Part shown: piece after piece, positions 10,550 to 64,000 of the stretch | Numbering within the stretch: the first letter of the stretch is position 1 | Layout of the letters: every line of letters starts with the position of its first letter | NCBI RefSeq assembly: GCF_000482865.1 | Contig: NZ_KI519519.1 | Span: 81,652-145,651, forward strand | Origin: Actinokineospora inagensis DSM 44258 | Lineage (GTDB): Bacteria > Actinomycetota > Actinomycetes > Mycobacteriales > Pseudonocardiaceae | Direction: 5' to 3' | DNA: 64,000 nt | Notes under the pieces: model-generated | Databases searched by the model: none | Seen by the model: only the letters and a program-made list of their open reading frames with translations | What the model was told of the DNA's origin: nothing | Made by a program: the position numbers and the translations under genes

Positions 10550-10640
10550 CTTTCGGTCTACGTGCCGGTGTCCTCGCTTGTCTCCGCCTGACCAGGGCTG
10601 TCCCATCCCGTCCGCAACCAGTTCCACCCCACTGGGCTAC

Positions 10641-10751
10641 CGAGTTATCCACAGTAGGGCCTCCCCGGTTACTTGCTGGAGATCAACTGTCGGTGGGGGG
10701 CGGTAGACTGGGTCCGGGGCCGCCCCCCGGGAAGGGTGGGGGCTGGGCTGG
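10641..10751 (+). repeat. Dispersed repeat, intergenic copy
   Basis: Two blocks recur here in the same order as inside two NRPS epimerization domains. Block 1 is CGAGTTATCCACA at 10641-10653, which includes the classical DnaA-box sequence TTATCCACA. Block 2 at 10701-10751 contains CGGTAGACTGG, CGCCCCCCGGGA and GGGTGGGGGCTGGGCTGG; 41 of its 51 bases match the coding copies at 53161-53211 and 48629-48679 (opposite strand). The spacer between blocks is 47 nt here and 54 nt in the coding copies, and is not conserved. The site lies 90 bp past the AmiC-like gene. Confidence 0.65.
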
Positions 10752-22450: not shown

Positions 22451-22491
22451 TCGGGTGTTTGTGGATGGTTGGGATGGGCGATGCCTCAGCG

Positions 22492-37929: not shown

Positions 37930-40900
37930 TCAGAGGAGTTGACTGAGCAGGGCGCCCAGGGTCGGAAGCATGTGCGGGGACAGGATTTGGGCGTGTCTGC
38001 ACGGGAAGTCGTGGGTGTAGATGGTGGTGGCGTGGGCGCGCCAGTCGTTGGCGGCGGGGGTGTGGGTGAAGCCGGGCTCGGGGATTTTGGCGTCAACGAG
38101 GATGACGGGGCCGGGGAAGTGGGGGTAGGTGGCGGTGGCGAGGAGTTGTTGGCTGGTCAGGTAGCTCTCGACGATGGCGGCGATGGTGGTGGGGGTGAAC
38201 TGGGACATGATGTCGCCCCGGGAGTGGATGAGGGTGACGGCCGTGTCGAGGGTGGAGTCCTCCGGGGTCGGATAGTCCAAATCGGACAGTAGGCCGGTGA
38301 TGGCGGTGGCGCGGTCGGTGGGGACCTCGTCGATTGTCGGGTCGAAGTGGCGGGAATCGAGGAGGGCGAGCAGGGACACCTCGTGGCCGCGGGAGTGGAG
38401 AGCGCAGGCGATGAGGTGGGCGACGTTGCCGCCGAAAGACCAGCCGACGAGGCGATAAGGGCCGGTTGGTTGGATGCGGGTGATCTCGGCGCAATAATGG
38501 TCGGCCAAAGCGTCGAGGGTGGGGAAAGCCCGCGAGGGGTCGCTGAGCAGCGGGGATTGCAGGCCGTAGAGGGGGATCTGGGCGGGCAGGTGGGCCTTGA
38601 GCGGGGCGAACTGCCAGGCCAGACCACTGGCGGGGTGGATGAAGAAGACCGGGGTTCCCGTACCGGGGCGTAGTTCGACGATGGGGGCGAGGGCAGCGGA
38701 TTCCTCGGATCCCATTGGGCCGTCCAGGTGAGCGGCGAGTGCGGCGGGAGTGGGGGCGGTGAACAAGGCGGTGATGGGGACTGTGACGCCGGTGTGGGAC
38801 TCGATGGCGGAGCTGAGGCGGACCAGCAGGAGTGAATGGCCGCCGAGGGCGAAGAAATCGTCGTCGGCGCCGATGGTGTCCAAGCCGAGGGTTTCCGCGA
38901 ACAGGTCGCACAGCAAGCGTTCGCGGTCGGTCGATGGGTCGCGGCGCGCGGACATCGACGCGAAGTCGGGGGCCGGAAGGGCTCGGCGGTTGACTTTTCC
39001 GTTGTTGGTCAAGGGGAATGCGTCAAGGCCGACGAAGGCGGACGGGACCATGTATTCGGGGAGTCGGGCGACGGCGTGGGCGCGGAGCACGGCCGGGTCG
39101 ATCGGAGGCGTGACGTAGCCGACCAGGCGGGAATCGCGGGCGACGACGACAGCGCGGGTCACACCATCCACATCGGACAGCACGGACTCGATCTCGCCCA
39201 GCTCGATGCGGAAACCGCGGACCTTGACCTGGTCGTCGACTCGGCTGAGGTATTCCAGGCCGTGTGCGGTTCGGCGGACGAGGTCTCCGGTGCGGTACAG
39301 GCGACCGGGGCCGTAGGGGTTGGCGATGAAACGGGACGCGGTCAGGTCGGGACGGTTGTGGTAGCCGCGCACGACACCGGCGCCCGCGATGTAGAGCTCG
39401 CCCGCGACGCCGTCGGGGACCAGGTTGAGGTGGTCGTCGAGGACATACACCTGGGTGGCCCGGATTGGGTGGCCGATTGTCACCTGGTCGGTGATCTCGG
39501 CGGCGGTGGACCAGACCGTGGTCTCGGTGGGGCCGTAGAGGTTGACGACGCGGCGGGCGCGGGTGGCCAGCGATCCGGCGAGCACGGCGGGCAGGGCCTC
39601 GCCGCCGACCAGGACGGTCGTGTCGCGCAGGGTCGCGCCGGTGTCGATGACGGCCTGCCACAACGACGGGGTCGCCTGGACGTAGTCGGTGACCAGGCAG
39701 GCGAGCAGGCGGGGGTCGAGGACTTCGTCGCGGGTGGCGATGCGGACGGTGACGCCCCGGGTGAGCGGGACCAGGAGTTCGAGCACGGCGATGTCGAACG
39801 ACAGGGTGGTCACGGCGAGCAGGCGGTCGCCCGGCCCGAACCCGATCAGCGCGGCCATGGCCTCGGCGAAGTTCGCCACGGCGCCGTGCGGGATGACGAC
39901 GCCCTTGGGGCGGCCGGTCGAGCCGGAGGTGTAGATCACGTAGGCCGGGCTGTCCATATCGGACACCAGCTCGGGTGCGTTGCCCTGCAGGTCATCCGCG
40001 AGGGCGATGGTGTCCCGGACCGGCGGCAGCGCGGCGCGGAGTGCCGCCGTGGTGATCAGGATGGCGGGCTCGGCGTCGGCGATCATGTACGCGAGGCGGT
40101 CGGTCGGGTAGTCCGGGTCGAGCGGGAGGTAGGCGGCGCCGGAACGCAGCACGGCGAGCATGGCGACGACCATGTCCACCGACCGGGGCAGGGCCAGCGC
40201 GACGATCCGCTCGGGGGCGGCGCCGCGACGGACCAGGTCACCGGCGAGCGCTTCGACGCGGCTCGCGAGTTCGGCGTAGCTGAGGGTGCCGTCGGCGGCT
40301 TCGACGGCGATGGCGTCGGGCGTGCGAGTGGCCTGTGCGGCAAATTGTTGGTGGATGGTAGTGGTGACCGGTTGGTCGACTGGGAAGGCAAGCGTGGCGT
40401 GGCGTTCGTCGGCGGACAACAGATCGATCGCGCTCACGCGGGTGTCCGGGGTGAGGGCTTCGACCAGGCGGACGAGGCGGGTGGCGAAGCCGGTCGCGGT
40501 GGCGCGGTCGAAGAGGTCGTCGGCGTACTCGACGGTGCCGGTGATGCCGTCGGGCAGCTCGGTGAAGGTGAAGGTCAGGTCGAACCGGGCGGTGGTCACC
40601 TCGGCGGCCTGCTCGGTGGTCGCGACGCCGGGGAGACCGAGGTCGCGGTCGTCGGCGTCGTGGAAGATGACCATGGTTTGGAACAGCGGGTGCCTGGCCA
40701 TCGAGCGGGCCGGGTTCAAGATCTCCACCAGGCGCTCGAACGGCACGTCCTGATGCGCGTAGGCGGCCAGGTCGGTCTCCCTGACCCGGCGCAACAATTC
40801 GCTGAACGTCGGATCGCCGGAGACGTCGGTGCGCAGGACGAGGGTGTTCAGGAAGAAGCCGACCAGGTCGTCCAAGGCTTCGTCGGTGCGGCCCGCGATG

Positions 40901-43900
40901 GGGGAACCGAGCGGGATGTCGGTGCCCGCGCCGAGCCGGGAGAGCAGGGCGGCAACGGCGGCCTGGGTGGCCATGAACAGGGTCGCGCCGCTGGCACGGG
41001 CGGCGGCGCGCAGACCGCGTAGTGCCTCACTGCTGAGGTTGAACCGGACTTCACCGCCACGGTAGGACGCGACAGGAGGTCGTGGCCGGTCGGTCGGTAG
41101 CGCCAACTCCTCCGGCATCCCGTCGAGGGCCGCGCGCCAGTACGAGACCTGTGTCGACACGAGACTGTTAGCGCTGTCTTCGGAGCCGAGCAGTTGACGC
41201 TGCCAGAGCGTGTAGTCGGCGTAGTGGACCGGCAGTGGGGCCCATTGCGGTGCGGCTCCGGCGCGGCGGGCGGCGTAAGCGGTGCCGAGGTCACCGAGGA
41301 GCGGCGCGGTGGACCACTCGTCGGCGGCGATGTGGTGCACCAGCAGAACGATCACCGAGATGTCCGCCGACTCGCGGAACAGCCACGCCCGAACCGGGAT
41401 CTCCCGGGACAGGTCGAAGGCGTACTCGGTGGCTTCCTGGACACCGTTACCCTCAACGACCTCGAACGGGACCTCGACGTCGGACCGCACGCGCTGGTAT
41501 GGCACGCCGTCGTGGTCGGGGAAGACCGTGCGCAGGCTCTCGTGTCGGGCGATGACGTCGTTGAGCGCGGCCTTGAGGGCGTCCGGGTCGACATCACCGG
41601 TGAGCCGCGCGGTAAGGGGGATGTTGTAGGTCGAGCTGGGGCCTTCCATGCGGAACAGGAACCAGAGCCGCTGCTGCGCGAACGACAACGGCAGCCGCTC
41701 GGGCCGCTCGGCACGGTTTAGAGCGGGCCGGGCAACACCGGCGGCGGGCAGGCGGGACACGAGTCCGGCGACCGTGGGGGCCTCGAAGACATCTCGGATG
41801 GTGGGCGCGGTTCCCAAGACCGAGCGGATGCGGCTGACGAGCTTGGTCGCGAGCAGGGAGTGTCCGCCGAGGGCGAAGAAGTTGTCATCGAGGCCGACCG
41901 TGTCGCGGCTGAGGAGGTCGGCGAAGATGCCCGCGACGAGTTCTTCACGCGGGTTGCGGGGCACGCGCTTCTCCCCCGTATCCATGACCGGGTCCGGTAG
42001 GGCCTTGCGGTCGACCTTGCCGTTGGGGGTAGTCGGCAGCGTGTCCAACTCCACGAATGCGGACGGGACCATGTAGTCGGGCAGGGTGGTTCGCGCCCAG
42101 GCTGGTAGGTCGGACAGATTGCCGTCCGCGACGACGTAAGCGGCCAGGTAGGCGCTACCAGCGGGGACGGTGACAACGGCGGAGCGGACGCCAGGGTGGC
42201 TGAGCAGAGCCGCTTCGACCTCTTCGAGCTCCAGGCGCATACCGCGGATCTTGACCTGGTTGTCGGCCCGTCCGACGAAGTCCAGCGTGCCGTCGCCCGC
42301 CCATCGGACGAGGTCACCCGTGCGATAGAGGCGGGTACCGGGTGCGCCTAGGGGGTTGGCGACGAAACGGGACGCGGTCAGGTCGGGGCGGTTCACGTAG
42401 CCACGGCCGAGGAGGTAACCACCGACGTACAGCTCGCCCGCGACACCCGGCGGGACAGGATTAAGGGCTTCATCGAGCACATAGAGCTGTGTGTTGGGGT
42501 TGGGGCCACCGATGGAGGTGGCGATTCGATCGGCGCCCTCGCGGTAGACGATGTGGGAGACGCCGATGGTGGTCTCGGCAGGGCCGTAGCCGTGATACAT
42601 CGTGGTGTTAAGAGCCTGGCGGAACCTGTCGAACAGCTCCGGGGTCAGGACCTCGCCGCCGCACCACACGTGCTTAAGACCCTGCAACGAGGCGGTACCC
42701 GCCGACAGCTCCAACAGCGCGTCCAGCATCGAGGAAGGCAGGTAGACGAAGGTGACGCCTTCACCGTCGATGAGGTCGAGCAGGTAACGCGGGTCGCGTT
42801 CGCCGCCGGGTTCCGCGATGACGACGCGCCCACCGGTGACCAGCGGCAGCAGGATCTCGTTGACGGAGATGTCGAACGAGAGAGGGGCCTTGAACAGGGA
42901 CGCGTCGCCCTTGCCGAAGCCGAGCAGCCCGCTCTGCCAGACCAACCGCGCGCAGATGGCCTCATGCCGGATCATCGCGCCCTTAGGCGTACCGGTGGAG
43001 CCAGAGGTGAACATGACATACGCGAGTTGGGTCCCGTGCGTCGGCGCGGCCTCGGCGACGGGGTGACCGCCATAGCCCCAGCGCGTCAGGTCTACCGACA
43101 CCGTTAGCTCTGACTCCGGCACGCCGCCTGGGCCGGTCACGGTCAACATGGCACCGGAATCGCGCAGCACGGTCTCACGGCGCGCGGTGGGCCACGTCGG
43201 GTCGAGCGGCACGAAGGCGCCACCCGCGCGAAGGATCGCCAGCAACGCGATGACCATCTCGGCGCCGCGCGGCAGCCCGATCGCCACCACGCGCTCCGAG
43301 TCCACTCCGCGTGCACGCAGCTCCGTGGCCAACTGGCCCACCAGGACGTCCAGTTCGCGGTAGGACAACCGGGTGGACCCGGAAACCAGCGCTGTCTCCT
43401 GCGGGTAGGTGCTGAACGTCGTTGCCAGCAACTCGGGCAGGGTACGGGTGATCTCGGGCTCGACGGTGTCGTTCCAAGAGTGGACGACCTGGACGCGTTC
43501 GTCGGCGGACAGCAGGTTGACGCGTCTGACGAGTTGACCGGGGTCGGTGCTGACGGCGGTAAGAAGGCGCACGAGCCGGGTAGCGATGTCTGCGACGGTT
43601 ACCTCGTCGAACAGATCGGTGGCGTACTCGATGGAGCCGACCATGCCGGTTGGTGTGTCAGTGAAGCCGAAGGACAGGTCGAACTTGGCCGTAGTAGTGG
43701 GCAGGTCCTGTGCGGCGGTATCGGTGCCGGGGATGCCGAGGTCGCTGTCGTCGAGGCCGGTGTGGGTGACCATGACGTGGAACAACGGGTGCCTGGCCAT
43801 CGAGCGGGCCGGGTTCAAGATCTCCACCAAGCGCTCGAACGGCACGTCCTGATGCGCGTATGCGGCGAGGTCGGCTTCCCGAACCCGGCGCAACAATTCA

Positions 43901-46900
43901 CTGAACGTCGGGTCGCCGGAGACATCGGTACGCAGGACGAGGGTGTTGACGAAGAAGCCGACCAGGCGGTCCAGGTTCTCGTCGGTGCGGCCCGCGATCG
44001 GGGTGCCGAGCGGGATGTCGGTGCCCGCGCCGAGCCGAGTCAGCAGGGCGGCGACGGCGGCTTGGGCGATCATGAACGCGGTGACGCCCTCGCGGCGGGC
44101 GAGGTCCTTGAGCGCGGCGGCGACCGCCGGTTCCAGCGCGAAGCGGACATCGTCGCCCCGGTAGGACGCCACGGCGGGACGCGGGCGGTCGAGGGGCAGG
44201 GCGATCTCGTCGGGGACGCCGGCGAGGGTGTCGCGCCAGTAGGCGACCTGGCGGCCGACGAGGCTGTCCGGGTCGTCCTCGGAACCAAGCAGGTCACGCT
44301 GCCACAGGGTGTAGTCACCGTACTGAACCGGCAGGTTTGTCCATTGAGAACTAGCGCCGATTTTACGCGCAGCGTAGGCGATTCCCAGGTCGCCGAGCAG
44401 CGGCGCGGTGGACCACTCGTCGGCCGCGATGTGGTGCACCAGCAGAACGATCACCGAGATGTCCGCCGACTCGCGGAACAGCCAGGCGCGAACCGGGATC
44501 TCCCCCGAGAGGTCGAATGCGTATTCGGTCGCCTCCTGGACACCATTTCCCTCGACAACCTGGAACGGGACCTCCACATCAGTCAGAACGTCCTGGTATG
44601 GGACACCGTCGTGTTCCGGGAAGACCGTGCGGAGGCTTTCGTGGCGAGCGACAACATCGTTGAGCGCAGCGTGTAGAGCCTCGGGATCGACATGGCCGGT
44701 GAGGTGGGCGACAAAGGGGATGTTGTTGGTCGAGCTGGGGCCTTCCATGCGGAACAGGAACCAGAGCCGCTGCTGCGCGAACGACAACGGCAGCCGATCC
44801 GGCCGCTCGGCAATCACCAGTGCCGGGCGGGCGTCGCCGGTCGAATTCGCCAACGCGGCGATTCCGGCGACAGTGCGGGCGGTGAAGACGTCGCGGATCG
44901 CCAACTCAGCGCCGAGGGTGGCGCGAACGCGGGACACCAGGCGGGTCGCCAGCAGGGAGTGGCCGCCGATGGCGAAGAAGTCGTCGTCGGGTCCGACCTC
45001 GGGCAGGTCAAGCACTTCGGCGAACAGTGCCGCGACGATCTCCTCGGCCGGGGTTCGCGCCCGGCCGGAGCCTGCCGTAGCGCTGAAATCGGGCGCCGGG
45101 AGGGCTTTTCGGTCGACTTTTCCGGTCGGCAACGTCGGAAACTCTTCCAGCACAACAATCGCGGCGGGAACCATGTGCTCGGGGAGGGTCTTCCCGAGCC
45201 TGACACGCAGAGAAACCGGGTCGGCTTCGAAGCCCGGCGTGGAGATGACGTAAGCCACGAGCTGACTGTCGCGGGCGATCACGGTGGCTTGGGAAACCGT
45301 GTCATCGTCGGTCAGGGCGGATTCGACCTCGCCGGGCTCGATGCGGAAGCCGCGGACCTTGATCTGCTCGTCGACCCGGCCGAGGAATTCCACTTGGCCC
45401 TCGGCAGTCCAGCGGACCAGGTCGCCGGTGCGGTAAAGGCGGCCAGTCCCGGTGATGAAGTTCGGGATGAAGCGCGACGCGGTCAGGCCGGGCCGGTTGA
45501 GGTAGCCGCGCGCGACGCCGGGGCCGCCGAGGTACAGCTCACCCGGGACGCCGACCGGGGTGTTGCCCAGGGTGCGGTTGAGCACGTGCGCCTCGGTGTT
45601 CGCCACCGGCCCGCCGATGACGGGCTTGGCGCCGTCGATTCGAGCGAACACCGCGTCCACTGTGGTCTCCGTGGGGCCGTAGAAGTTGAACGCGGCGATC
45701 CCCGTCAGGCGGTCCCACAGGGCCGGTCCAATGGCCTCGCCGCCAGTGCCGATCAACGCGATCCCGGTGTCCAACAGACCTTCGTCGACGAGCTGCGCGA
45801 GGAGGGCCGGGGCGGCATCCAAGTAGCCGATCTTGTTCTCGCGGACGTAGGCGACCAGGTCGGTGGCGTCTGAGCGGACGAGGTGCAGCTCGTGGCCCGC
45901 GATCATCCACAGCAGACCCTCGATGGACGCGTCGAACGAGAAGGACGCCGTGTTGAGGACGCGCAGGCGTTCGCCGGGCATGACCGAGGCACGGTGTGAA
46001 GCAAGCAGATTGGCCAGGCCCCGGTGCTCGACAACGACACCTTTGGGCTTGCCGGTAGAACCCGAGGTGTAGAGGACATAGGCCGCGCTGAGAAGTGGTT
46101 TGGGGCAGCGTGAATCAGACGTGCCGATGGTGTCGAGAACGAGTTTCGGCTGGGCATCGGCGACCATGTGAGCGATGCGGTCTTCCGGATACGCCGGGTC
46201 CACAACGAGATACGCCGCACCCACCTTCCACGCGCCGATGATCGCCGCCACCAAGTCCACCGAGGACTTCATGGCGAGCCCGACGATGTCGCCGGACCCC
46301 ACTCCCCCATCGGTCAAATACCCGGCGACGCCTGCAGCGAGGTCGTCGAGCTGGGCGAACGTCAATGACCCGCGCTCGTCAACCACCGCTGTAGTTGTGG
46401 GGGTCGCGGCAACCTGGTGCGCGAACACCTCTAGAACCGAATCGGGAACGTCGACTTCTAGTCCCCTGTGGATGATCGACTCGGCGAGCGTGACATCGCG
46501 GACCCGGCGGCTCGGGTCGGCGGCGAGTGCGTCGAGGACCCGCAGCAGGTCAGCGGCGAGGGTGGTCGCGGTGGCCCGGTCGACGACGTCCGGCCGGTAC
46601 TCCAAGGAGAGCTCCAGCGTGCGACCGACCTCGGCGGTGAGCGTCACCGGGTAGTCGGTGGCGTCGGTGCCGGACACGCCGGTGACGCGCAGGCCCGCCG
46701 CGGCCTCGGCGGCGCCCAAGGCCTCGGTGTCGACCGGGTAGCTCTCGAACACGGTCAGTGTGTCGAACAGTTCGGTGAACCCGCTGCCACGACGGGTTTC
46801 GGCGAGGCTGAGGTGCTGGTGCTCGATGAGCGCGGACTGCTCGGCCTGCACCCTGCGGGCCGCCTCGGCAAGGCTTTCGCCCCGGTCGAGCCGAACGCGA

Positions 46901-49900
46901 ACGGGTACGGTGTTGATGAACAGCCCGATCATCAACTCGACTCCGGGCAGGTCGGCGGGCCGCCCGGACACCGTCGCGCCGAACACCACGTCTTCCCGCC
47001 CGAGCCGCCGGGCCAGCACGAGCCCCCAGGCGAGCTGGACCGCCGTGTTCAGGGTGATTCCGAGCGCCCGAACCACATCGGCCAGATCCCGATTCCCGAC
47101 TTCGACCCGCTCTGGCCGCACCGCCGTCGTGGCGATACCGGGTCCCGCGACGAGCGTCGGTTCCGCAAGACCCCGGAGCGCCCTGTCCCACGCTTCCCGC
47201 GCCGCATTCTTATCCTGTGTGGACAGCCAGCACAGGTAGTCGGTGAATGGTTTCGGCTTGGGGAGGTCGACTTCGCCGTAGAGCTGGAAGAGTTCCTGCC
47301 CGAGCAGTGGGGTCGACCACCCGTCGAGCAGGACGTGGTGATTCGTAATGACCAGCCGCCCCTCGGGATCGAACAGGAACCGGATCAGCGGCGCGGTGCC
47401 GAGGTCGAACCGGGTGTCGAGATCGCGGTCGGCATCACCGCCCACCCGCCACGGTGCCCGCACCGCGTCCGCCACAACCTGGACGAGTTCACCGTTGGGC
47501 CGAGCGCGGAAACCTACCCGGAGATTGGCATGCCTGGCCAACAACTCGTCCGCCGCCCGTCGCAGCCTGACCGGGTCAACTTCCCCCTCCAGCTCGAAAA
47601 TCGTCTGTACCGTGTAGACATCCTGATCGCTGCTGTCCAAATTGGATAGATAGACCAGTCCTTCCTGCAACGGACTCAATGGCCAGATGTCCGCCGCACC
47701 GGTCGCCACGAGCGCGTCGACCTCGCCCTGGTCGAGATCGACCAACGGGAAGTCCGACGGCGTCCGCCCCCCGTCCGCCGCGCTCAGCTCGGCGAGCGCG
47801 GCAACCCAGTGATCGCTGATCGCCTTGATGTCCGCGTCGGTGAACACCCCGTCCGCCCACGTCCAGTCGAACACCACCCTGGCACCCACCGCCATGATGT
47901 CCACCTGCAACGCGTGGTCCAGCGGCATGTCCCCATCCGCACCACCCGCGATCCCGCCGCTACCGCCCTCCGCGAACCGCCCCAGGTAGTTCACCAACAC
48001 CTGCGGCTTCCGCGTCAACAACGGCGCCGTGCCTTCGTTCAGGTGGCGGAGCAACCCAAACCCACTCCCCCGCCGCGGCGTCGCCCGCAACTCCTCCTTG
48101 ACCCGCTTCAACGTCGCCACCGCGCCACCCGCAGGCGTCAACCGAACCGGGTACAGGCTGGTGAACCACCCCACCGTCCGGTGCAGATCCGCCCCCGGCA
48201 CCAACTCCTCATCCCGCCCATGCCCCTCTCGAGCAATGAGCACACCCACCCGTGGACTCCACCGCGCAAGCGCCACCGTCAACCCGGCCAACAACACGTC
48301 GTCAACCTCGGCCCGGAACCGCGCCGGAACCCCCGTCAACAACTCCCCCACCGGCACCTCAACCCGCGCCCGCCCCGCCGACGCCACCGTGTCCCCGGCC
48401 GTCAACGCCCGAGCGCCGAGCAGCGGATCATCCCCCGCCAACACCCCCTCCCAATACCCCAGCTCCGCCGTCTCCTGCGCGGCCGCCACCAACCCCTGCG
48501 CCCACCGCCGAAACGACGTCCCCACCGGCTGCAACTCGTCCCCCCGCAGCCCGGCTTCCAAATCGGGCACCAGGACCCGCCAGGACACCCCATCAACCAC
48601 AAAATGGTGCGCCACCACCACAAGAACCCCAGCCCAGCCCCCACCCAGTCCCGGGGGGCGTCCCTGGTCCAGTCTACCGGCACCACCCGACCGGGCAAAG
48701 AAGCCGACCGGAGCTGTGGACGACTGCGAAGGATGTGGATAACTCGTCGACAGGGTGCGATCCGGGCCGGCGGGGATCCAGGCGACGGCGAAGACGGAGC
48801 CGGTGTGGGGGTCCAGGGAGTCCAGCAGGCGGTTGACGACCGTGGTGGTGAGGTCGGGGTCCTCCGGGGCGGCTTGTGGGGTGGGTGGGGCTCCGGCGCG
48901 AGAGGCGTCAACGGTGGCGGGTCTGAGGCCCGCAGGTGCCACGTCCGGGGCGAAGTCGTCGAGGGCACTGGGGACATCGATGGTGGTGACCAGAGAAGCG
49001 GCATCGACGGCGTCGGCGATGGTGAGGCCGTCGGGGGTGAGGCGGGCGCGAAGGATGTCGTGGGTGTCGAGGAGGCGTTGGACGGCTTGGACCAGGCGGG
49101 GCTCGGTGAGGTCGGCGGGGGCGGGGATGACCTGCACCTGGGCGAAGCGGTTGATGGGACCGCCGGTGGCCAGGAGGTCGCGCATGATGGGGGTGAAGGG
49201 GACGAGGCCGGTGTCGGGAGTGTCGACGACGGTCGGCGCGGTGTCGGTGGTGGTGCGGGCCGCGAGGGCGGCGACGGTGCGTTGTTCGAAGACGTCGCGG
49301 GGGGTGAAACGCAGACCTGCGGCGCGGGCGCGGCTGACCAGTTGGATGGAGACGATGCTGTCGCCGCCGAGGGCGAAGAAGTCGTCGTCAACCGCAACGG
49401 GGACACCGAGAACGGCGGCGAAGAGGTCGACGAGGGTGGCCTCGACAGGGGTGCTGGGGCGGCGGCCCACGGAAATGGCGGAGACGGCGGGGGCGGGCAG
49501 GGCGCGGCGGTCGATCTTGCCGTTGGGGAGTTGGGGAAGCGAGTCGAGGACGACGATGGCGGCGGGGACCATGTGGTCGGGGAGCAGCGAAGCGGCGTGG
49601 GCGCGGGCATCGGCGGCGGTGGTGCCGACGACGTAGCCGATGAGGAGTCCATCGTGGACGGTGACGGCGGCGTGGGGGGCGATCTCGGCCAGCACGGATT
49701 CGATCTCGCCGAGTTCGACGCGGAAACCGCGGATCTTCACCTGGTCATCGGCGCGGCCGAGGAATTCCAAGGAGCCCGCGCTGTTCCAGCGAGCGAGGTC
49801 GCCGGTGCGGTACAACCGGCCGGGGCCGAAGGGATTCGCGACGAACCGGGACGACGTCAGCCCCGGCTGACCCCAATACCCGCGTGCCACACCAGGACCG

Positions 49901-52152
49901 CCGACATACAGCTCCCCCGCAACCCCGGGGCCAACCATGGCCAGCGTCGAGTCCAACACGTGGGCGGAGGAATTGGCGATGGGCCGACCGACAACCACAT
50001 TCGGGCCGACAATGGGGGCGAACAAAGCATCCACAGTAGACTCAGTGGGTCCGTAGAAGTTGAACGCCGCCACCGAACTGTCGGCCAGAGTTCGCCACAA
50101 AGTGGGGCTGACGGCCTCGCCGCCGGTACCGACAACAGAGATCCCGGTGTCGAGCAGGCCCACCTCGACAAGCTGGGTCAACAGTGTCGGAGCGGCATCC
50201 ACATACGCGATGTTGTTGGCGCGCACGTATTTCACGAGCGCTTCCGCATCGCGCATCAGATCGAGATCGGCGATGTGCAATGTGTGACCGGACAGCATCC
50301 ACAGCAACGGGTCCATCGACGCGTCGAACGAGAACGACGCCGCGTGCAACACGGGACCTGGGCGCATCACTGACGACCGGTGGGAAGCCAGCAGGTTCAC
50401 CAAGCCGGAATGCTCGACAACAACACCCTTGGGTCGACCGGTCGAGCCCGACGTGAAGATCATGTACGCCGCGCCATCCACCGCGACCGGGGTGAACGGG
50501 CTCGACATGTGGTCTTCGACGGCCGACAGCACCAGAACCGGCCGCGCGTCATCGAGCATCAGCCGGATGCGCGACTCGGGGTAGGCGGGATCAATCGGTA
50601 GGTGGATAGCGCCCGCCTTCCACACAGCCAACAACCCGACCACGGCATCAACCGACCGAGGCAGCATCGACGCGACGACCGACTCGCGCACCACGCCTTG
50701 CGCCTGCAGCCAACCTGCCAACTCGGACGACCGCGCGTCGAGTTCGGCGAAGGTCAGCGATCCAGCCGAATCGACAACAGCCATCCCGTCAAACGCTGCG
50801 ATATCCAGCAAATCCCCAACGGGCACGGCAGAACCCGCAGAAACCCGAGCGAGGAATGCACGATCCACAGTGGACAGCAAATCGATCGATCGAATGGGTC
50901 GCGCCGAATCGTCGACGAAAGCCGTCAGCGCGGCCACGAGTCGATCGGCGAACCACTCGGCGGAGTCGATCACGTCGGGGCGGTGGTCGATCCACACCGT
51001 GAGCCCGTCGGACGCCTCGGCCGTCAGGGTCAGCGGGTAGTTGGTGTCATCCACCCCCTGAACGCCAACAACTCGCAACCCAGCCGCGGTTTCCGCCCGG
51101 CCGAGCGCGTCCGTGTCGACCGGGTAGCTCTCGAACACGGTGATCGTGTCGAACAGCTCGGGCAGGCCGGTGCGCCGCTGGACGCGGGACAGCCCGACGT
51201 ACTGGTGGTCCATCACCCGGGTCTGTTCCGCCTGCACCCGACCGACCAGTGCGCACACCGTGTCCGCCGGTTCGATCCGGACCCGGACCGGCACCGTGTT
51301 GATGAACAACCCGATCATCGAGTCGACGCCGGGCAGGTCAGCGGGCCTGCCGGACACCGTCGCGCCGAACACGACATCGGACCGGCCGAGCCTGCGGGCG
51401 ATCACCAGCCCCCACGCGGTCTGCAGCAGGGTGTTGACGGTGACGCGCAGGCTCCGGGCCAGGTCACCGAGCCGCCGCGCCAGCTCGGGGGTCACCTCGA
51501 CCGGAACGCGCCGGGTCAGCGAACCGGAGTGGGCGGCACCGGCAGGGCCGACGAGAGTGGGTTCGGTGACGCCGTCGAGCGCGTCCGCCCAGACCTTCTC
51601 CCCCAGTTCACGGTCTTGCCGGGACAGCCAGACGAGGTAGTCGCGGAACGGCCGGACCCGGCGCAGACCGCCGGTGTCGCCGCGCGCGCCGTAGATCTCG
51701 AACAGCTCGCCGAGCAGCAGCGGCGTCGACCAGCCGTCCAGGATGATGTGGTGGTTGGTGACCAACAATCGGTGACGATTCGGGCCCACCCTGGCGAGCA
51801 GGAACCGGATCAGCGGCGGTTCGGCGAGATCGAACCGGGTGGCCCGGTCCCGCTCGACGATCGCGGGCCACTCGGCCTCGGTGGTGTCGATCTCGGTCCA
51901 CGGCACGGCGACCCGGGCGGGCACCAACTGCACGGCTTCCTCGGCGGCGAAGCAGACCCGCAGGTTGGCGTGCCTGCGCAGCAACGCGGTCGCCGACTCG
52001 CGCATCAACTCGGCGTCCAGCGGCCCGTCGATGTCCAGTACCGTTTGGACGGTGTAAATGTCTACTTCGGACTCGTCGTAGCCCGCGAGGAACAGCAATC
52101 CTTCCTGCAGCGGCGACAACGGCCAGATGTCCTGCAACCCCGCCCGCGTCAC
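37930..52152 (-). CDS. NRPS, four modules with terminal thioesterase (C-A-T-E, C-A-T, C-A-T, C-A-T-TE)
   Basis: 4740 residues from the GTG at 52152, which overlaps the previous stop as GTGA and has GGAGG upstream; a GTG at 52164 lacks such a site. Module 1: C (HHIILDGWS ~134), A (FDASMDP ~611; pocket D-A-D-D-G-G-F-V-D), T (~930), E (HHFVVDG ~1181) with a 45-residue in-frame insertion. Module 2: C (~1604), A (FDASIEG ~2073; pocket D-A-E-D-G-G-F-V-D), T (~2394). Module 3: C (~2573), A (FDISVNE ~3093; DINYWGGIG, the N5-acyl-N5-hydroxyornithine code of coelichelin CchH), T. Module 4: C (~3606), A (FDIAVLE ~4118; DILQLGLVW, glycine), T (~4435), TE (GWSFGG ~4570, EntF-like [10 protein letters not shown]). 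C domains of modules 1-2 have the DCL-like PLSPLQEG start and those of modules 3-4 an LCL-like PLSFAQQRL start, matching where E domains lie. Modules 1 and 2 probably add basic residues. Confidence 0.93.
48578..48746 (-). repeat. Repeat-derived insertion in E domain of terminal NRPS, module 1
   Basis: 48578-48728 is identical over 151 bp to 53110-53260 in the other NRPS gene. The part at 48629-48746 carries the two blocks of the dispersed repeat also found at 10641-10751: CGAGTTATCCACA (reversed at 48734-48746) and the 51-bp G-rich block (48629-48679). Read in frame it gives the extra segment [20 protein letters not shown] continuing to GGGWA immediately before the catalytic [11 protein letters not shown]. 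Unmodified E domains in this cluster lack it. Confidence 0.8.
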
Positions 52153-55100
52153 CGGGTCCTCCACTTCGCTTCGAAACTGTCGATCCGGTCCTGCCCGAAC
52201 CCGGTAACCAGCAGGTCGGACGGGGTCAGGCCACCCGCCCCCTCTTCGGCGGCGTGCTCGGCGATGGCGCGCAGGGCACCGCCGACGCAGGTGGCGAGGT
52301 CACGGACATCGCGTTCGGTGAAGACACCGTCGAGATACGTCCAGGCGATCCGCAGTTCCGCGCCAACCGCAGCAATGTCCACTTGCAACGGATACTCGGC
52401 AGGCAGATCCGCGTTGGCACCACCACCGATCCCGCCACCGGCGATGCGACCGAGGTAGTTGAACAGGACTTGACGGCGACCGGCGAGCGCGGGCCCCGTG
52501 CCCGGGTTGAGGTGCCGGAGCAGCCCGAACCCGATCCCAGTACCCGGCGTGGCCCGCAAACCCTCCTTGACCTGCTTGAGCGCCTTGCCCGCCGCCGGTC
52601 CCCCCGCCACCGCGTCAGCGATGTCGATACCCGCGACGTCGAGCCGAACCGGGTGCACGCTGGTGAACCAACCAACCGTGCGGTGCAAATCGGCCCCCGG
52701 CACAGCATCCTCATCGCGACCGTGCGACTCCAAGTCAACGGTGATGCTGGTGCGCGCCACGTTGCGATACCGCGCGGACCACCGAGCAACACCGAGCGCG
52801 AACCCAGTCAGCAACACGTCATCGACCTCAGCGTGGAACAACTCCGGAACCGCACGCAACAGCGGCTCGGCGACATCGGCGTCAACGACCGTGGTCACCC
52901 GACGCAGATCGGCCACGGTGTCACCGGACTCAAGCAGCCGATCCCCCAACACGGCCTCGTCCGCCGACACCACCGCGGTCCAATGCCCCAGCTCCCCGAC
53001 GCGGTTCTCGGCAGCCTCCACCAGCCCACTCGCCCACCGCCGAAACGACGTCCCCACCGGCCGCAGCCCATCCCCCCGCAGCGCCGCCTCCAGATCCGGC
53101 ACCAACACCCGCCAGGACACCCCATCAACCACAAAATGGTGCGCCACCACCACAAGAACCCCAGCCCAGCCCCCACCCAGTCCCGGGGGGCGTCCCTGGT
53201 CCAGTCTACCGGCACCACCCGACCGGGCAAAGAAGCCGACCGGAGCTGTGGACGACTGCGGGGGTTGTGGATAACTCGCTGACAGGGTGGGGGTGACCTG
53301 GGGGTTGGCGGACGCGAGGCTTGAGGTGTCGGGGAACGAGGCATTGGGAGGCGAGGCATCAAGGGACAAGGCATCGGAAGACGAAGCGGCCGGAGACCAG
53401 ACACCGGGGGGCCGAGCGTCGAGAGACGAAGCATCCGGGAACCAGACGCCGGAAGACGACACGCCAGCAGGCGGAGCACCGAAGGACGAAGCGGCCGGAG
53501 ACCAGGCACCGGGGGGAGGGGCGTCGAGAGACGAGGCGTCCGGGAACGAGACGCCGGAAGACGACGCGGCAGCAGGCGGAGCGCCGGAGGACGAGGCGTC
53601 CGGGAACCAAGCGCCGGGGGTCCGGGCATCGGGAGACGAAGCGGCTGGGAACCAAGCGCCGGACGACGACGCGGCAGCGGGCGGAGCGCCGGGAGACGAG
53701 GTGTCGGGAAGCGAGGCGCCCGGAGACGAGGCGCCAGCGGACGAAGTATCCGGAGACGAAGCGTCAGGAAATGAAGCGCCGGCAAACGAAGCAGGAGAAG
53801 ACGATGCACTAGAAAGCGACGCGTCGGAAAGCGAAGGGGCAGCGGGTGAACTGTCCGGAGGCGAGGCGTCGGGAAGGGAGGCGTCGGGGAACCAGGCGAC
53901 GTGGAACATGGGGCCGGTGTGGGGGGCGAGGTGGTCCAGGACGGAGTCGACGTCGAGGGGGCCGGGGTGGTGGTGGACGGACGCGGTGGCGGTTTGTGGG
54001 ACTTCGAGGCCGGCTGGGGTGAGGCGGGCGCGGAGGATGTCGTGGGTGTCCAGGAGCGCTTGGACGGCCGTGGTGAGGGTGGGCAGGGTGAGGCCAGGTG
54101 GGGCGGGGATCACCTGCGTCTGCGCGAATCGGGTGATCGGGCCGCCTTGGTCGAGCAGGTCGCGCATGATCGGGGTCAGTGGGACCAAGCCGACGCCGTT
54201 GTCGGTGCCGGCGGGCTGGTCGGGCTCGGCGATCAGGGCCAGGGCGGCGACGGTGCGCTGCTCGAACACGTCGCGGGGGGAGAACTTGAGGCCTTCGGCG
54301 CGGGCGCGGCTGACCAACTGGATCGAGACGATGCTGTCGCCGCCGAGGGCGAAGAAGTCGTCGTCGATGCCGATTGTGGGCAGGCCGAGGACGGCGGCGA
54401 AGATGTCGACGAGGGTGGCCTCGGCCGGGGTGGTGGCTGCTCGGTTGGACACCAGGGCGGCGAAGTCCGGATCCGGTAGCGCGGACCGGTCGATTTTTCC
54501 GTTGGGCTGCAACGGGAATTCGTCGACGGCTACGAATGCTGACGGGATCATGTGGTCCGGGAGCAGGGCGGCGGCGTGGGTGCGGAGATCGGTGGCGCCG
54601 ATGACATAAGCCACCAATCGACCGTCACGAACGACGGCGACGGCGGCCCGCACCTCCGGGTGCTCAGCGAGAACCGACTCCACCTCACCGAGTTCGACCC
54701 GATAACCGCGGACCTTGACCTGGTCGTCGGCGCGGCCGAGGAATTCCAGGGAACCCGCACTGTTCCAACGCACCAGGTCGCCCGTGCGGTACAGACGACC
54801 ATCGCCGAATGGGTTGGCCACGAATCTCGCGGCGGTGAGTCCGGGCTGACCGAGGTAGCCGCGCGCGAGTCCTGGGCCGCCCACATACAGCTCACCGACG
54901 ACACCAGGCGGGACCAGCCCGAGTGCCTGATCCAGCACGTGGACCACGGAGTTCGCCACTGGGCGGCCGATGACCACATCTCGTCCGGCGATCGGCGCCA
55001 CCACGGCGTCCACTGTGGACTCCGTGGGTCCGTAGAAGTTGAACGCCTCGACCGAACTGTCCGCGAGAGTGCGCCACAACTCGGGGCCAATGGCCTCGCC

Positions 55101-58100
55101 ACCGGTGCCGACAACGGAAACGTCCGTTTCGAGGAGGCCGTCGGACACCAATTGGCTCAAAAGTGAAGGTGCGGCGTCGACATAGGCGATGTTGTTGTTC
55201 CGCACGTAGTCCACGAGTCCGCGCGGATCGGCGACGATGTGGGTTTCATGGCCGGCAATCATCCACAACAACGGGTCCAGGGAGGCGTCGAACGAGAACG
55301 ACGCCGATTGCAGCGCCGCGCCCGGTCGCAGCACCGAAGCCTGGTGCGACGCCAACAGGTTCACCAACCCGGAATGCTCGACAACAACGCCCTTGGGTCG
55401 CCCGGTTGAACCAGAGGTGAAGATGACGTAGGCCGCGCCGGAAACCGGACCACCCGTGAATGAGTATCCGGAAACGTCGTCGATCTCGATGGCACCCGGC
55501 ATGGCGACCGCGGCGATGGTCAAGGTCAACCGGGGATTGGCCTGCTCGACCATGTACCGCAGCCGATCGGCCGGGTACTCGGGGTCGAGCACGAGGTACG
55601 CCGCGCCCGCCTTCCACACGCCGATCATCGCGGCGACCAACCCGGCCGACGACGGCAACGCCAGCGCGACAACGTCACCCGCGCGGACACCGTTCGCGAC
55701 CAGCAGCCCGGCGACCTGGTCGGATCGGGCGGCCAACTCGCCGTAGGTCAGGGTCGCGTCGGGGCCGACGACGGCGCGCGCGGCGGGGTCCTGACGGGCG
55801 AGCACGTCGAGCACGGACGTGTCCGCCACGTCCACAATCGGCCCACACCCGGCCACGCGCAGAAACTCCCGCTCGGCGTCCGACAGGAGGTCACCGACCA
55901 CGGTGTTCTCCGCGAACGACCGCAGCGCGCGGACGAACCGGTTGGCCCACGCGGTCACGAGTTCGGCGGAGACAAGGTCGTCGCGCACGTCCAGCCAGGC
56001 GGAACCGGCGTTGACGGTGAGGGTGATCGGGTAGTTGGTGGCGTCGGCGCCGCTGACCCCGCTCACCCGGAACCCGGCGGCGAACTCGGCGCGGTCGAGG
56101 GCGTCCGTGTCGACCGGGAAACTCTCGAACACGGTCAGCGTGTCGAACAATTCGCCGACACCGAGGGCGCGGTGCAGGTCGGCGATGCCGATGTGCTGGT
56201 GGTCGAGTACGGCGGCCTGTTCAGCCTGGACCCGGGTCAGCAGGGCTCCGGTGGTCTCCGCCGGGTCGAGCCGGACGCGAACCGGGATCGTGTTGATGAA
56301 CAAGCCGATCATCGACTCCACGCCGGGCAGGTCCGCCGGTCGCCCGGACACCGTCGCGCCGAACACCACGTCGGTGCGACCGAGACCGCGGGCCAGGGTC
56401 AAGCCCCACGCGGTTTGGACCAGGGTGTTCACCGTGACGCCGTGCTGTCGCGCCACAGTGGACAGCGACTCGGGCAGCGCCAAGTCGACCCGCCGGGGCA
56501 GCGCGCCGGAACGAGCAGCGCCCGCGGGAGCGACGAGAGTGGGCTCGACACCGGCAAGTGACTGCGTCCACACAGGAATCCCATTGTCCTTTGCAGACAA
56601 CCAGTGGAGGAAGTCCCGGTATGACCGGACGGCGGGGAGAGTGTTGCCCGCGTACAGCTCGAACAGTTCGCGCACCAGCAGCGGTGTCGACCAGCCGTCG
56701 AGCAGCAGGTGGTGGAACGTGATCAGCAACCGGTGCCGGCCCGGTCCGACCCGACCGACGAGGAACCTGATCAGTGGCGCCGAAGCGATGTCGAACCGGG
56801 TCCGCCGGTCGGCCGCGACCAACTGGTCCCAGTCGCCGTCGGTTTCCCGCCAGGCGAGTTCGGCGTGGGCGGACACGACGAGGACGGGGTGGTCGACAGA
56901 CGCGCGAAGGACCTCGTGCCGATCGAGCAGAGCAGACGCGGCAGCTCGGAGGCGCACGGTGTCCAGCGGCCCGGTGAGTTCACACTGGAACTGGACGGTG
57001 TAGACGTCGGTGGCGGTGTCGTCGAAGCGGGACAGGAAAGCGATTCCCTGTTGCAGCGCGGTCGGCCGCCAGACGTCGACGAGGTCGGGGTGCCTACGCG
57101 CCAATTCGTCCACGTCGGACTGATCGAGGTCGGCGAGCGGGAAGTCCGACGGGGTGAAGCCGCCCCCGCCGGTGGCCACGTGCCGGTCGAGCGCGTCGAG
57201 CGCGGACACCCAGGCGGCGGCGAGGTCGTCGATCTTGGTCTGGGTGAACAGGGCGGCGGGCCAGGAGAAGGTCGCGGTGAGGCGGCCGTCGGCGGTGACG
57301 GCGTTGATGTCGAGGGCGTGGCCGACCGACAGCTCGGGGTTGGCGTCGCCGCCAAGCGCCCCGGCCTCCGGCGCCCCGGACCAGGGGCCGGGGGTGCCCG
57401 CGTCGAACCGGCCGAGGTAGTTGAACAGGATGTCGGGGTTGGTCGCGGACAACTGGTCTCGCAACAACCCGAATCCGAGGCCGTCGCCCGGTACCGCGCG
57501 CACCTGTTCCTTGATCCGCTTGATGGCGTCCCCGGCCGACGCCCCCGGGTGCACGTCGATGCGGACCGGGTGGGTGCTGGTGAACCAGCCGACGGTGCGG
57601 TGCAGGTCGGCGCCAGGGACGGCGTCCTCCTCGCGACCGTGTCGTTCCAGGTCGACCACCCGCGGGCCGCCGACCTGGGCCGTGGCGAGGGCGAGGGCGG
57701 TGAGCAAGATGTCCTCCACGCCCGCGTGGTAGGCGGCGGGCACCGGCCCGAGCAGTCTGGCGGTGGTGTCCGGCGAGATCGACACCCGGACGGACCGCAC
57801 GGTGGCGACGGTGTCCCGAGCGGGCACGACCTGGCGGCCGCCGGTGGGAAGGCCGCGCCAGTGGTCGAGTTCGGCGGCGCGGTCCTGGGTGGTGAGAGCA
57901 CGCGCCCAGTCGCGGAACGAGGTGCCGACCGGGGCGAGCGGCTTGCCCGCGACGGCGTCGGCGAGGTCGGGCACGATGATCCGCCAGGACACGCCGTCGA
58001 CCACCAGGTGGTGCGCGACGACCAGCACCCGGTCGGGGGCGAACCAGACGACCCGCAGCATCTCCCCCGCCGCCGGGTCCAGTTCGCCGTAGGCCCGGAC

Positions 58101-61100
58101 GGCCTCGCCCGCGTAGTCGGTGTTGTCGACGTGACGAACAAGAGGCGCGGCATCGAGGTTCGAGCGGACGTCGAGAGCGTCAACAACCAGACGCGCGCGC
58201 AGGATGTCGTGGGTGTCGACGACGGCCTGGACGCCGGCGACGAGCCGGTCCAGGGTCAGGCCAGGCGGCGCGATGAGCAGGCGGGCCTGGGCGACGCGGG
58301 TGAACGGGCCGCCCCGGCCGAGGAGTTCGCGCATGATCGGGGTCAGCGGGACGGTCCCGGTGCCCTGGGACGCGACGACCGGGGCCGGTTCGGCGGCGAC
58401 CTCGGCGACGCGGGCGACCGTGCGCCGCTCGAAGACGTCCCGCGGGGAGAACCGGAGCCCTTCGGCGCGGGCGCGGCTGACCAACTGGATCGAGATGATG
58501 CTGTCGCCGCCGAGGGTGAAGAAGTCGTCGTCGATGCCGACCGAGGGCACGCCAAGCACCTCGGCGAACACGGCGGCCAGAGTGCGTTCGGTCTCGGTCT
58601 CGGGCTGTCGCGCGGTGGTGAGCCCGGCGAAGTCCGGTGCGGGGAGGGCTTTGCGGTCGACCTTGCCGTTGGGGGTCAACGGGATGCGGTCGAGCACTAC
58701 GAACGCGGCGGGCACCATGTGTTCTGGTAGATCCCGCCCCGCCCAGCGGCGGAGCTCGCCGCTGTCAACAGGAGCAGTGGGGACGATGTAGGCGACGAGC
58801 CGGGTTGTCCTGTCTTCGCGCACTACGGCTACCGCGTGCGCGACGGCTGGGTGCACGGACAGGACTGCCTCGATCTCGCCCAGCTCGATGCGGAACCCGC
58901 GCAGCTTGACCTGACCGTCCGCGCGGCCGAAGTACTCCAGGGTGCCGTCTTCGCGCCACCTGGCGAGGTCACCCGTGCGATAGAGGCGACCGGAGCCGAA
59001 CGGGTTGGCCACGAATCGGGTTGACGTGAGCCCGGCGCGGTTGACGTAGCCGTCGGCGAGACCGGCTCCCGAGACGTAAAGCTCGCCGACGACTCCCGGT
59101 GCGGACAGGCCGAGGCTGTTGTCGAGGACGTAACACCGGAGGTCCGGGATGGGGAGACCGATGTCCGGCGTGCCTTCGGTGGCGATGCTCTTGGTCAGGG
59201 GGAGGTAGGTGACGTGCACGGTGGTCTCGGTGATCCCGTACATGTTCACCAGACGCGGGGCGTCGTCGGCGTGGCGGTCGTACCAGCCCGTCAGCTTGCG
59301 CGGCTCCAGGGCCTCACCGCCGAGGATGACGTACCGCAGCGCGAGGTCCACACCGCCCCGGGCGGCGTCGGCGGCGTCAAGTTGGTGGAACGCCGAAGGC
59401 GTCTGGTTGAGCACGGTGACGCGTTCGCGCGCGAGTAGGTCGAGGAACGCCTCGGGGGAACGGCTGGTGGCGTGGTCGACGACGACGAGAGTCCCGCCGC
59501 GTAGCAGCGCTCCCCACAGCTCCCACACGGAGAAGTCGAAGGCGTAAGAGTGGAAGAGAGTCCACACGTCGTCGGCGCCGAAGTCGAACCAGTGGTCCGT
59601 GGCGGTGAGCAGCCGGTCGACGTTGCGGTGCGGGACGAGAACACCCTTGGGAGTACCGGTGGACCCGGAGGTGTAGATGACGTAAGCCGGGTGATCCGGA
59701 GTTAGCGCTACCTGCGGCGGTGGGCCGTCCACACTGTCTGTCGGGGATACCGTGGGCAAGTCGAAAGCCCGGTCGGTGACTACGAGCGTCGGTGCGGCGT
59801 CGGCGACCATGAGGTCAAGCCGGGCTTGCGGGTAGTCGGGGTCGAGTGGCAGGTAGGCGGCGCCGGACTTGAGGACGGCCAGCACGGCGACAACCAGGTC
59901 AGCCGACCGGGGCAGGCACACAGCGACGATCCCGCCAGGGCGGGCGCCACGCTCGATGAGCACGCGAGCGAGTTGGTCTGAGCGCACGTCCAGCTCGGCA
60001 TAAGTCAACCGGTCGTCGCCCGCGACAAGGGCTGTCGACCGTGGCGCGCGCACGGTCTGCTCGGCGAAGCGGGCCGGGATGGTGGCGGTAGCGCCAACGG
60101 TTCCGGTGGGGTTCCAACGCTCGGTGACGTTGTGGCGCTCGTCGTCGGAGAGGCCGTCGATGCGAGCGACGACGGTAGTGGAATCGGTGACAGCCGTAAG
60201 AATCCTGACCAGCCGTTCCGACAGGGTGTGTGGATCGACCAGCCCGGGGCGGTACTTGAGCAGCAAGTCGGTGCCGGTGGCGACAAGAGTCGCCGGGTAG
60301 TGCGTGGCGTCCCGGGTCTCCCCCGCGCGAACCCGCAGACCGGTGGCGGACTCGGCCCGGTCCAGAGCGGCGGTGTCGACGAAATAGCTCTCGAACACCG
60401 TCAGCGTGTCGAACAGCTCCCCGATCCCGGCCGCGCGCTGGATGTCGGCGAGCCCGAGGTGCTGGTGGTCCATCACCCTGGCCTGCTCGGCCTGCACTCG
60501 AACCAGCAGCGCGGCCACCGTCTCCGCCGGGTCGAGCCGGACCCGGACCGGCACCGTGTTGATGAACAGGCCGATCATTGACTCGACGCCGGGCAGGTCC
60601 GCCGGGCGACCGGACACGGTCGCGCCGAACACGACGTCATCGCGGCCGAGCGTGCGGCCGAGCAGCAACGCCCACGCGGCTTGGATCACGGTGTTGAGGG
60701 TGACGCCGGTCGATCGCGCGAGCGCGGCGAGTTGAGCCAAGAGGCCGTCCGGCACTGGGATGGGCTGTTGGTCGGCGGCGCCCGACGGGTCTGCCCCGGG
60801 CGCTAGCAGCGTCGGCTCATCCAAGCCGTGCAGTGACTCGGACCAGGCAGCACGGGCGGCCTCGTTGTCCTTACCGCGCAACCACGCCAGGTAGTCCTTA
60901 TATGGACGGACGGTCGGAAGTTTCGTGGGGTCGCCGTGGGCGGTGTAAAGCAGGAAGAGTTCCTTGGCCAGCAGCGGGGTGGACCAACCGTCCAGCAAGA
61001 TGTGGTGGTAGGTCAACAGCAACCGGTGCCTGTCCGGGCCAAGACGTGCGAGAAGGACTCGCAGCAACGGGGCCTGGGCGAGGTCGAAGCGCTCGGCGCG

Positions 61101-61417
61101 GTCTGCGGCGAGAACACCGTCCCATTCGGACTCGGTCACGTCCTGCTCGCGCCACGGTAGCGCTACCTCGCGCGGGACTGGGGCGAGCAATTCGCCGGTC
61201 TTACGGCGTCGGAAGCACGCGCGCAGGTTGGCGTGCCGGTCGATGAGGGCCTGCGCGGCGGTCCGCAGCACCACGGCGTCCAGTGGCCCGTCCAGGTCCA
61301 GCACGAACTGGACCAGGTAGGGGTCGTCGGTCTCGGTTCCGTACTCGCTGTGGAACAAGAGGCCTTGCTGCAGCGGGGAAAGGGGCAGGACGTCTTCCAA
61401 CCCGGGCTTGCGCGTGT

Positions 61418-61421
<4 letters not shown>
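52149..61421 (-). CDS. NRPS, two modules, both with epimerization (C-A-T-E, C-A-T-E)
   Basis: 3090 residues from the GTG at 61421, which overlaps the previous stop as GTGA and has CGGAG at good spacing. Module 1: C (HHILLDGWS ~138), A (FDFSVWE ~628; pocket D-F-W-N-I-G-M-V-H, the threonine code), T ([10 protein letters not shown] ~973), E (HHLVVDG ~1136). Module 2: C (HHLLLDGWS ~1570), A (FDASLDP ~2045; pocket D-A-D-D-G-G-F-V-D, probably a basic residue), T (~2358), E (HHFVVDG ~2758). The second E domain is split by an insertion of about 240 residues (~2510-2752) made of pentapeptide repeats plus the dispersed-repeat segment. Both C domains start with [16 protein letters not shown]-type sequence, consistent with accepting D-configured donors. 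Predicted additions: D-Thr (or allo) then D-X. Confidence 0.92.
53110..53278 (-). repeat. Repeat-derived insertion in E domain of middle NRPS, module 2
   Basis: Identical to 48578-48728 over 151 bp, then similar to about 53290. Dispersed-repeat block 1 (CGAGTTATCCACA) is reversed at 53266-53278 and block 2 at 53161-53211. It is read in frame into the E domain directly upstream of the catalytic motif, where it joins the long pentapeptide array on its other side. Confidence 0.8.
53308..53892 (-). repeat. 15-bp / 105-bp tandem repeat array coding for PDASS-like pentapeptides
   Basis: The coding strand repeats a 15-bp unit about 39 times, giving pentapeptides such as [20 protein letters not shown] and SSGVS. 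Within it three 105-bp (35-residue) higher-order copies lie at 53586-53690, 53481-53585 and 53376-53480, each beginning GAPPA and containing PDASS-like and PGAWS/PGAWF-like units. The array is in frame, free of stops and enriched in Ala, Ser, Pro, Asp and Gly, so it should be disordered. It starts right after the E-domain strand HVAWF. Confidence 0.88.

Positions 61422-64000
<2,579 letters not shown>

Follow-up and report, generated by a model that had tools for sequence, protein, structure and literature searches.

Repeat copies in two epimerization domains

The window analysed here is a 64,000-nucleotide stretch of Actinokineospora inagensis DSM 44258 (contig NZ_KI519519.1, positions 81,652 to 145,651), and our subject is a dispersed DNA repeat of which two copies lie in frame within its non-ribosomal peptide synthetase (NRPS) genes. 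The first copy, at site E1, occupies 48628..48747 (minus strand) in an epimerization (E) domain of the NRPS gene at 37930..52164 (minus strand). The second, at site E2, occupies 53160..53279 (minus strand) in the second E domain of the NRPS gene at 52149..61430 (minus strand). Both segments stand immediately before HHFVVDG, in frame and with an open reading, and in both the core GGTAGACTGG begins at codon position 1. The first E domain of 52149-61430 is normal and carries no such segment, and the E domain of a third NRPS gene (at about 61745-62395) has no match to R1, our model of the repeat. An earlier note made from the letters of the window, hereafter the sequence-only reading, had described an extra segment in two E domains that was missing from the other two, and this description holds.

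An intergenic copy is found on the plus strand at 10640..10751, outside the genes called by a codon-usage scorer. R1 scored 79.1 bits at E1, 80.0 bits at E2 and 64.1 bits at the intergenic copy; the model was built from 79 copies, 70 of them from this genome, with the E2 and intergenic copies among them, and the scores of these two are therefore partly by construction. Two blocks had been proposed as common to the inserts and 10641-10751. One, the 13-mer CGAGTTATCCACA, is indeed exact in the E inserts and the intergenic copy. The other, a G-rich block put at 41 identical bases of 51, came to 39/51 in the ungapped register that was tried, and to more with two compensating one-base gaps, so that the two counts nearly agree. 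Elsewhere in the window, weak R1 matches (16-21 bits) occur at 3301-3389, 3535-3624, 7223-7337, 13442-13550 and 22384-22468, which may be degraded copies of the repeat or halves of it that carry a box.

The E domain of site E1 (47881..49212, minus strand) was aligned and folded with AlphaFold from a 32-row alignment. Most of the model is a confidently predicted E fold (mean predicted local distance difference test score, pLDDT, 80; predicted template modelling score, pTM, 0.80), and a Foldseek search with it matched E-domain structures, 6ta8 and 2xhg among them. The pLDDT drops under 50 at residues 160-185 and 187-190, which are flanked by strands 141-147 and 195-202, the latter finishing at the active-site HH. 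The insert is thus placed by the model in a low-confidence loop between strands beside the HH, and is predicted to be a probably disordered loop of a hairpin. The pLDDT is under 50 at residues 93-105 and 411-431 as well. The catalytic motifs and the later modules continue in frame, from which it follows that any synthesis of the enzyme would include translation of the insert.

The loop at E2 also contains a degenerate tandem array with a 105-bp (35-codon) unit at 53381..53747 (minus strand), directly upstream of the repeat copy in the protein (Tandem Repeats Finder, TRF, arrays C8:135032-135339 and C8:135075-135398). A second low-complexity insertion was observed in the same E domain as E1, at 48860-48960 (minus strand). 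The aligned orthologues lack it and it has no match to the repeat model; the low-confidence residues 93-105 of the E1 model are recorded with it.

Copy number and anatomy of the repeat

The A. inagensis genome, a 7.28 Mb draft of 97 contigs, was searched with the pattern GGTAGACTGGN{2,7}GGGGNCGCCCCCCGGGA, which gave 104 exact matches, with none for the reversed pattern. A subfamily shorter by one base, to which both E-domain copies belong, gave 15 matches, and a pattern covering both subfamilies retrieved 120 copies. The family thus numbers more than 100 copies in its own genome, chance being ruled out, and the E-domain segments are copies of a dispersed repeat of approximately 115-120 bp. The sequence-only reading would have been refuted by a genome search without further copies; the many copies retrieved leave it standing.

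Read in the sense direction of the NRPS genes, the repeat begins with an AGTTRTCCACA box, containing a DnaA-type 9-mer, about 65 bp ahead of the core; TTRTCCACA stands at this 5′ place in 114/120 copies. At least two exact TCCACA boxes are present in 48/120 copies, the second usually at -42, 18-19 bp on. In the E1 copy the first box, TTATCCACA, lies at 48734..48742 (minus strand) and a second box-like 9-mer, TCGTCCACA, at 48715-48723, 19 bp from the first. The E2 copy has TTATCCACA at 53266..53274 (minus strand) and its second box-like 9-mer at 53247-53255, again 19 bp away. The boxes are followed by about 30 variable bases and then by the conserved core GCCGGTAGACTGGNNNNGGGGACGCCCCCCGGGA(N)GGGTGGGGGCYG, which is almost invariant for about 40 bp and terminates in GGGTGGGGGC. 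The right ends vary among copies, and the core itself differs in copies from congeners and from other genera, for example as GATAGACTGG or GGTAGAATGG. Copies may also be clustered, as at C65:21149-21729, where cores at 21199, 21331, 21597 and 21729 are spaced by 132, 266 and 132 bp.

RNAalifold on the 79 copies predicted 10 pairs. Compensatory changes were seen in none of them, although most paired columns never vary, which makes this result weak by itself. Since no pair has a compensatory change, the conservation of the repeat appears to be that of sequence and not of fold, and a structured-RNA reading was dropped on the lack of covariation. No inverted repeat was common to the three copies examined for one, and neither this check nor RNAalifold on the 79 copies detected a conserved palindrome. 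Rfam returned nothing at gathering score for the whole window and for five loci searched with lax limits, apart from two chance-level matches. A G-quadruplex motif is present in 82/120 cores vs 23 expected from mononucleotide shuffles, which are a weak control for conserved sequence, and this excess is taken only as a hint.

Occurrence beyond the genome

Among 99 aligned E-domain rows (from 108 loci, of which nine gave no row; seven rows repeat a site), the insert was seen only in Actinokineospora, the other rows including Mycobacterium, Rhodococcus, Streptomyces, Pseudomonas and Paenibacillus. Moreover, when R1 was run on 91 of these loci, which span many genera (a set of 78 and 13 from the genus), only A. 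enzanensis matched. Presence of the segment in E domains of unrelated genera, which would also have refuted the sequence-only reading, was thus not seen among the E domains covered. The repeat itself is more widely spread. R1 matches were found in all 16 members of the genus, at 3 to at least 150 per genome (lower bounds, with up to 150 candidates scored in each), and the strict core occurs in 26/297 genomes, and 10/46 genera, of the family to which Actinokineospora belongs. A blastn search with window positions 48610-48760 found no match among 72,556 plasmid and 50,697 phage records, on which a plasmid or phage origin was rejected.

Location of the copies

The gene calls place 112 of the 120 core copies between genes and six wholly inside long, strongly coding, codon-biased open reading frames (ORFs); of the remaining two, one lies 75% within a weak ORF and one overlaps a gene by 9%. 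A further 17 copies, chosen from among the listed R1 matches of the same genome, were all intergenic (C67:28885 stands outside the classified set), giving 137 copies examined and six wholly in genes. The 21 copies examined in two congeners were also all intergenic. The repeat is thus dispersed, with nearly all examined copies intergenic. Genes were called on both sides of 102 intergenic copies; for these the four gene-neighbour arrangements number 30, 29, 25 and 18 (counts only), and no clear orientation relative to neighbouring genes emerges; a promoter or terminator role was dropped for this reason. The core contains TAGACT, which we take to resemble a -10 hexamer.

All six in-gene copies are in frame and all six are in megasynthases. 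Besides E1 and E2, one lies in an NRPS adenylation (A) domain, between motifs A2 and A3 (C8:157279, outside the window), and three lie in the dehydratase (DH) domain of a type I polyketide synthase (PKS) at C29:11737-12688, where they are read antisense and are separated by degenerate PE/SP-rich repeats. These four came from the genome-wide search for other in-frame copies and extend the original claim, which had concerned E domains. TRF arrays lie within 800 bp of the E2 and PKS copies. A candidate seventh in-gene copy at C67:28500-29006, which matches the PKS insert and has a 408-residue open frame, was counted as non-coding because it scores negatively for codon usage (-0.2 to -0.4 per codon vs 0.20 to 0.28 for four megasynthase ORFs).

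Filled and empty sites in congeners

Orthologues of the NRPS genes were compared in eight congeners: A. enzanensis (DSM 44649), A. globicatena (DSM 44256), A. diospyrosa, A. terrae, A. auranticolor, A. pegani, Actinokineospora sp. NBRC 105648 and a further congener assembled as a single contig (G006). Site E1 is filled in 3/9 genomes (A. inagensis, G006 and A. enzanensis) and empty in the other six. Site E2 is filled in 4/9, the same three and A. globicatena, and empty in A. diospyrosa, A. terrae, NBRC 105648, A. auranticolor and A. pegani. The A site is filled in 3/7, the count being of genomes in which it was placed (all but A. enzanensis and A. pegani): the distance from A2 to A3 is 250 residues in A. 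inagensis, 156 in A. globicatena and 119 in NBRC 105648, where the R1 match is weak (23.9 bits), while in A. diospyrosa, G006, A. terrae and A. auranticolor it is 65, 65, 69 and 67 residues, with no R1 match. The PKS site is filled in 1/6; A. inagensis has about 320 extra residues there, and the halves of the best DH match adjoin in G006, A. terrae, A. globicatena, A. diospyrosa and NBRC 105648 (60-74% identity). A. enzanensis has an additional in-frame copy in the A2-A3 loop of another module. Rare copies thus occupy megasynthase loops in frame, and the orthologous enzymes of sister species have the same loops without the insert. In A. enzanensis (C15:141500-161170), another stretch right before an A3 motif looks swollen with low-complexity sequence.

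Two other explanations can be weighed here. The inserts could be ordinary protein sequence of this type of E domain, which resembles non-coding DNA or has seeded it, as might be argued from the filling of the same site in several species and from an intergenic copy that derives from the E1 gene (see below). However, orthologues and the E domains seen from other genera lack the segment, copies stand in unrelated protein contexts, including antisense in the PKS, and the repeat is present in other genera of the family, so that we regard this explanation as very improbable. Collapsed repeats in the assembly might be suspected for a repetitive element in a draft of 97 contigs, but in-frame inserts recur in other genomes, among them the single contig of G006, A. 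enzanensis DSM 44649 and A. globicatena DSM 44256, and all six in-gene copies of A. inagensis preserve the frame; the chance that they are an artefact is close to negligible.

Movement of copies

Similarities between copies were compared over 66 chosen loci. The E1 and E2 copies of A. inagensis are 96.7% identical to each other, 86-89% identical to the three nearest intergenic copies of their own genome and about 70% identical to the E-domain copies of other species among the listed matches. The E-domain pair of G006 is 97.5% identical and that of A. enzanensis 85%, each being at most 74% identical to anything else compared. From these identities, arrival or complete overwriting look separate by species, which is well supported for A. 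inagensis only. In all three species the identity between E1 and E2 peaks around the repeat (in an ungapped profile, readable as far as the first indel), suggesting that the two modules shared the insert after its arrival.

One intergenic copy (C46:52063, in C46:51978-52147) aligns with E1 for 170 bp at 88%, and the match includes about 16 and 34 bp of E-domain coding flank on its two sides. Elsewhere in the 10.7 kb retrieved around it, nothing more matched the window's NRPS genes, which were the ones compared. Since its flanks are E-domain codons, this copy most likely moved out of the NRPS gene. No target duplication was seen by eye at the E1 copy itself, where the loop flanks differ from those of the empty orthologues and the junction cannot be fixed.

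We considered whether the repeat is a miniature inverted-repeat transposable element (MITE) or a repetitive extragenic palindrome (REP) moved in trans by a transposase with defined ends, whether a REP-associated tyrosine transposase (RAYT) or that of an insertion sequence (IS). Its size, copy number and intergenic habit would suit such an element, and the core contains the tetranucleotide GTAG, as do the GTAG-tagged REPs described in an excerpt of PMC3733652. Against this, the Y1_Tnp family (PF01797), the only transposase family searched, is absent from the A. inagensis draft (0 matches) and from 14/16 genus members, this one included; terminal inverted repeats are not common to the three copies examined; and the right ends are variable, with one copy flanked on both sides by E-domain sequence. 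Movement of this kind is accordingly unlikely in our judgement. Ragged ends together with the lack of a Y1 transposase argue instead for a copying process over a precise transposase.

We therefore favour, as the likely explanation, a dispersed and mostly intergenic repeat that is copied imprecisely and whose surviving copies are selected, either between genes or in frame in megasynthase loops. Under this explanation the repeat would be non-autonomous DNA that is multiplied with imprecise ends during replication, through template switching or conversion-like repair, and would not be excised and inserted precisely. It could land anywhere, with selection retaining only intergenic copies and those that lie in frame at the surface of giant modular enzymes, in loops. 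An insert in one module may then be homogenised with the neighbouring module, and in some cases low-complexity tandem repeats may be added next to it, making the loop longer.

Several points weigh against this explanation. The case for copying consists of ends that vary, a single clear case of transduction and the absence, from a 97-contig draft, of the one transposase family that was searched. The filled and empty contrasts cover in-gene sites, with none for intergenic sites, and no recent transposition was caught. The filling of one site in several species could in part go back to old inheritance, followed by loss and conversion; at the A site, the A. inagensis copy has its best match in the copy of A. 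globicatena, at 75%. The comparison of identities used intergenic copies of A. inagensis already known to be E2-like and few from G006 or A. enzanensis. The near invariance of the core is partly built in, as copies were gathered by an exact-core pattern, and the intergenic and coding classes depend on a purpose-written gene scorer. Lastly, no TRF array lies near the E1 or A-domain copy (two of the six in-gene copies), and the excess of tandem arrays by intergenic copies is modest (38/114 vs 271/1257 control positions, p = 0.007), the controls coming from the same fetched stretches and hence not being independent.

DnaA-type boxes

The box at the 5′ end raises the possibility that the repeat is a functional DnaA-binding element, acting in titration or in the regulation of replication, which is kept as DNA even within genes whose loops tolerate it. 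Table 1 of PMC4285127 gives TTGTCCACA as the high-affinity DnaA box of S. coelicolor and M. tuberculosis and TTATCCACA as that of E. coli, and the near-universal DnaA-type 9-mer (114/120 copies) would fit such a role, as would conservation in sequence and not in fold. Of eight near-consensus boxes in the 8 kb around the dnaA gene of A. inagensis, seven sit in about 320 bp downstream of it, the kind of cluster that oriC would be expected to show. Counts of paired boxes run from 10 to 301 across the 16 members of the genus, A. inagensis having 136. One genome from a different genus of the family has 132, genomes from the order's other families have 0-12, and the reversed pattern yields 0-1. In the fetched stretches, which were chosen for the repeat, 124/172 paired boxes fall within it.

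However, the boxes of the repeat are separated by about 10 bp, whereas the double boxes of E. coli have 2-3 bp between them in the part of PMC11317965 that describes them. Only 48/120 copies carry two exact TCCACA boxes, and the copy number swings from 3 to at least 150 R1 matches among congeners. We know of no link to DnaA for the core, which is the most conserved part of the repeat. Binding of the repeat by DnaA is a testable possibility, and a function in DnaA binding is one that we hold only tentatively, judging it somewhat doubtful. A more speculative proposal, which we think improbable, is that a family-wide repeat bearing DnaA boxes multiplies via the replication machinery: initiator binding and the G-rich core may stall forks and prompt template switching, with megasynthase loops serving as coding refuges and the enzymes being diversified by translated initiator sites.

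Significance and comparison with known systems

The filled and empty sites form a natural series showing which E, A and DH loops accept roughly 40 to 320 foreign residues, a tolerance of direct use for megasynthase engineering. They also extend in-frame repeat insertion to actinomycete megasynthases, and they expose an abundant repeat with DnaA-type boxes whose effect on replication is testable. In-frame repeats within genes are already described for Rickettsia, and for REPs of several species, in an excerpt of PMC3733652. Neither this repeat nor any dispersed repeat in frame in bacterial NRPS or PKS genes was found in the open-access literature searched, most subscription papers lying outside it.

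The sequence-only reading had likened the repeat to the Rickettsia palindromic elements, and the likeness is one of behaviour. Both are short dispersed repeats found between genes, as most copies here are, and sometimes in frame inside them (PMC3733652, in part). In structure they differ, the Actinokineospora repeat having no palindromic fold with covariation and no shared inverted repeat; its host is an actinomycete, and the in-gene copies found are all in NRPS or PKS genes. GTAG-tagged REPs, with their RAYTs, resemble it in the GTAG tetranucleotide and in being mostly intergenic with some copies inside ORFs (same source, in part). Unlike these, it is about 115-120 bp long and not a palindrome of 20-40 bp, its GTAG is internal rather than at the end of a palindrome, and its assembly has no Y1 transposase. 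MITEs are likewise small, non-coding and present in many copies, but the repeat has no common terminal inverted repeats in three copies and its ends are not fixed. DnaA-box clusters such as datA, DARS and double boxes share with it one or two DnaA-type 9-mers, from which the Actinokineospora repeat is set apart by more than 100 dispersed copies, about 10 bp between its boxes and a G-rich core.

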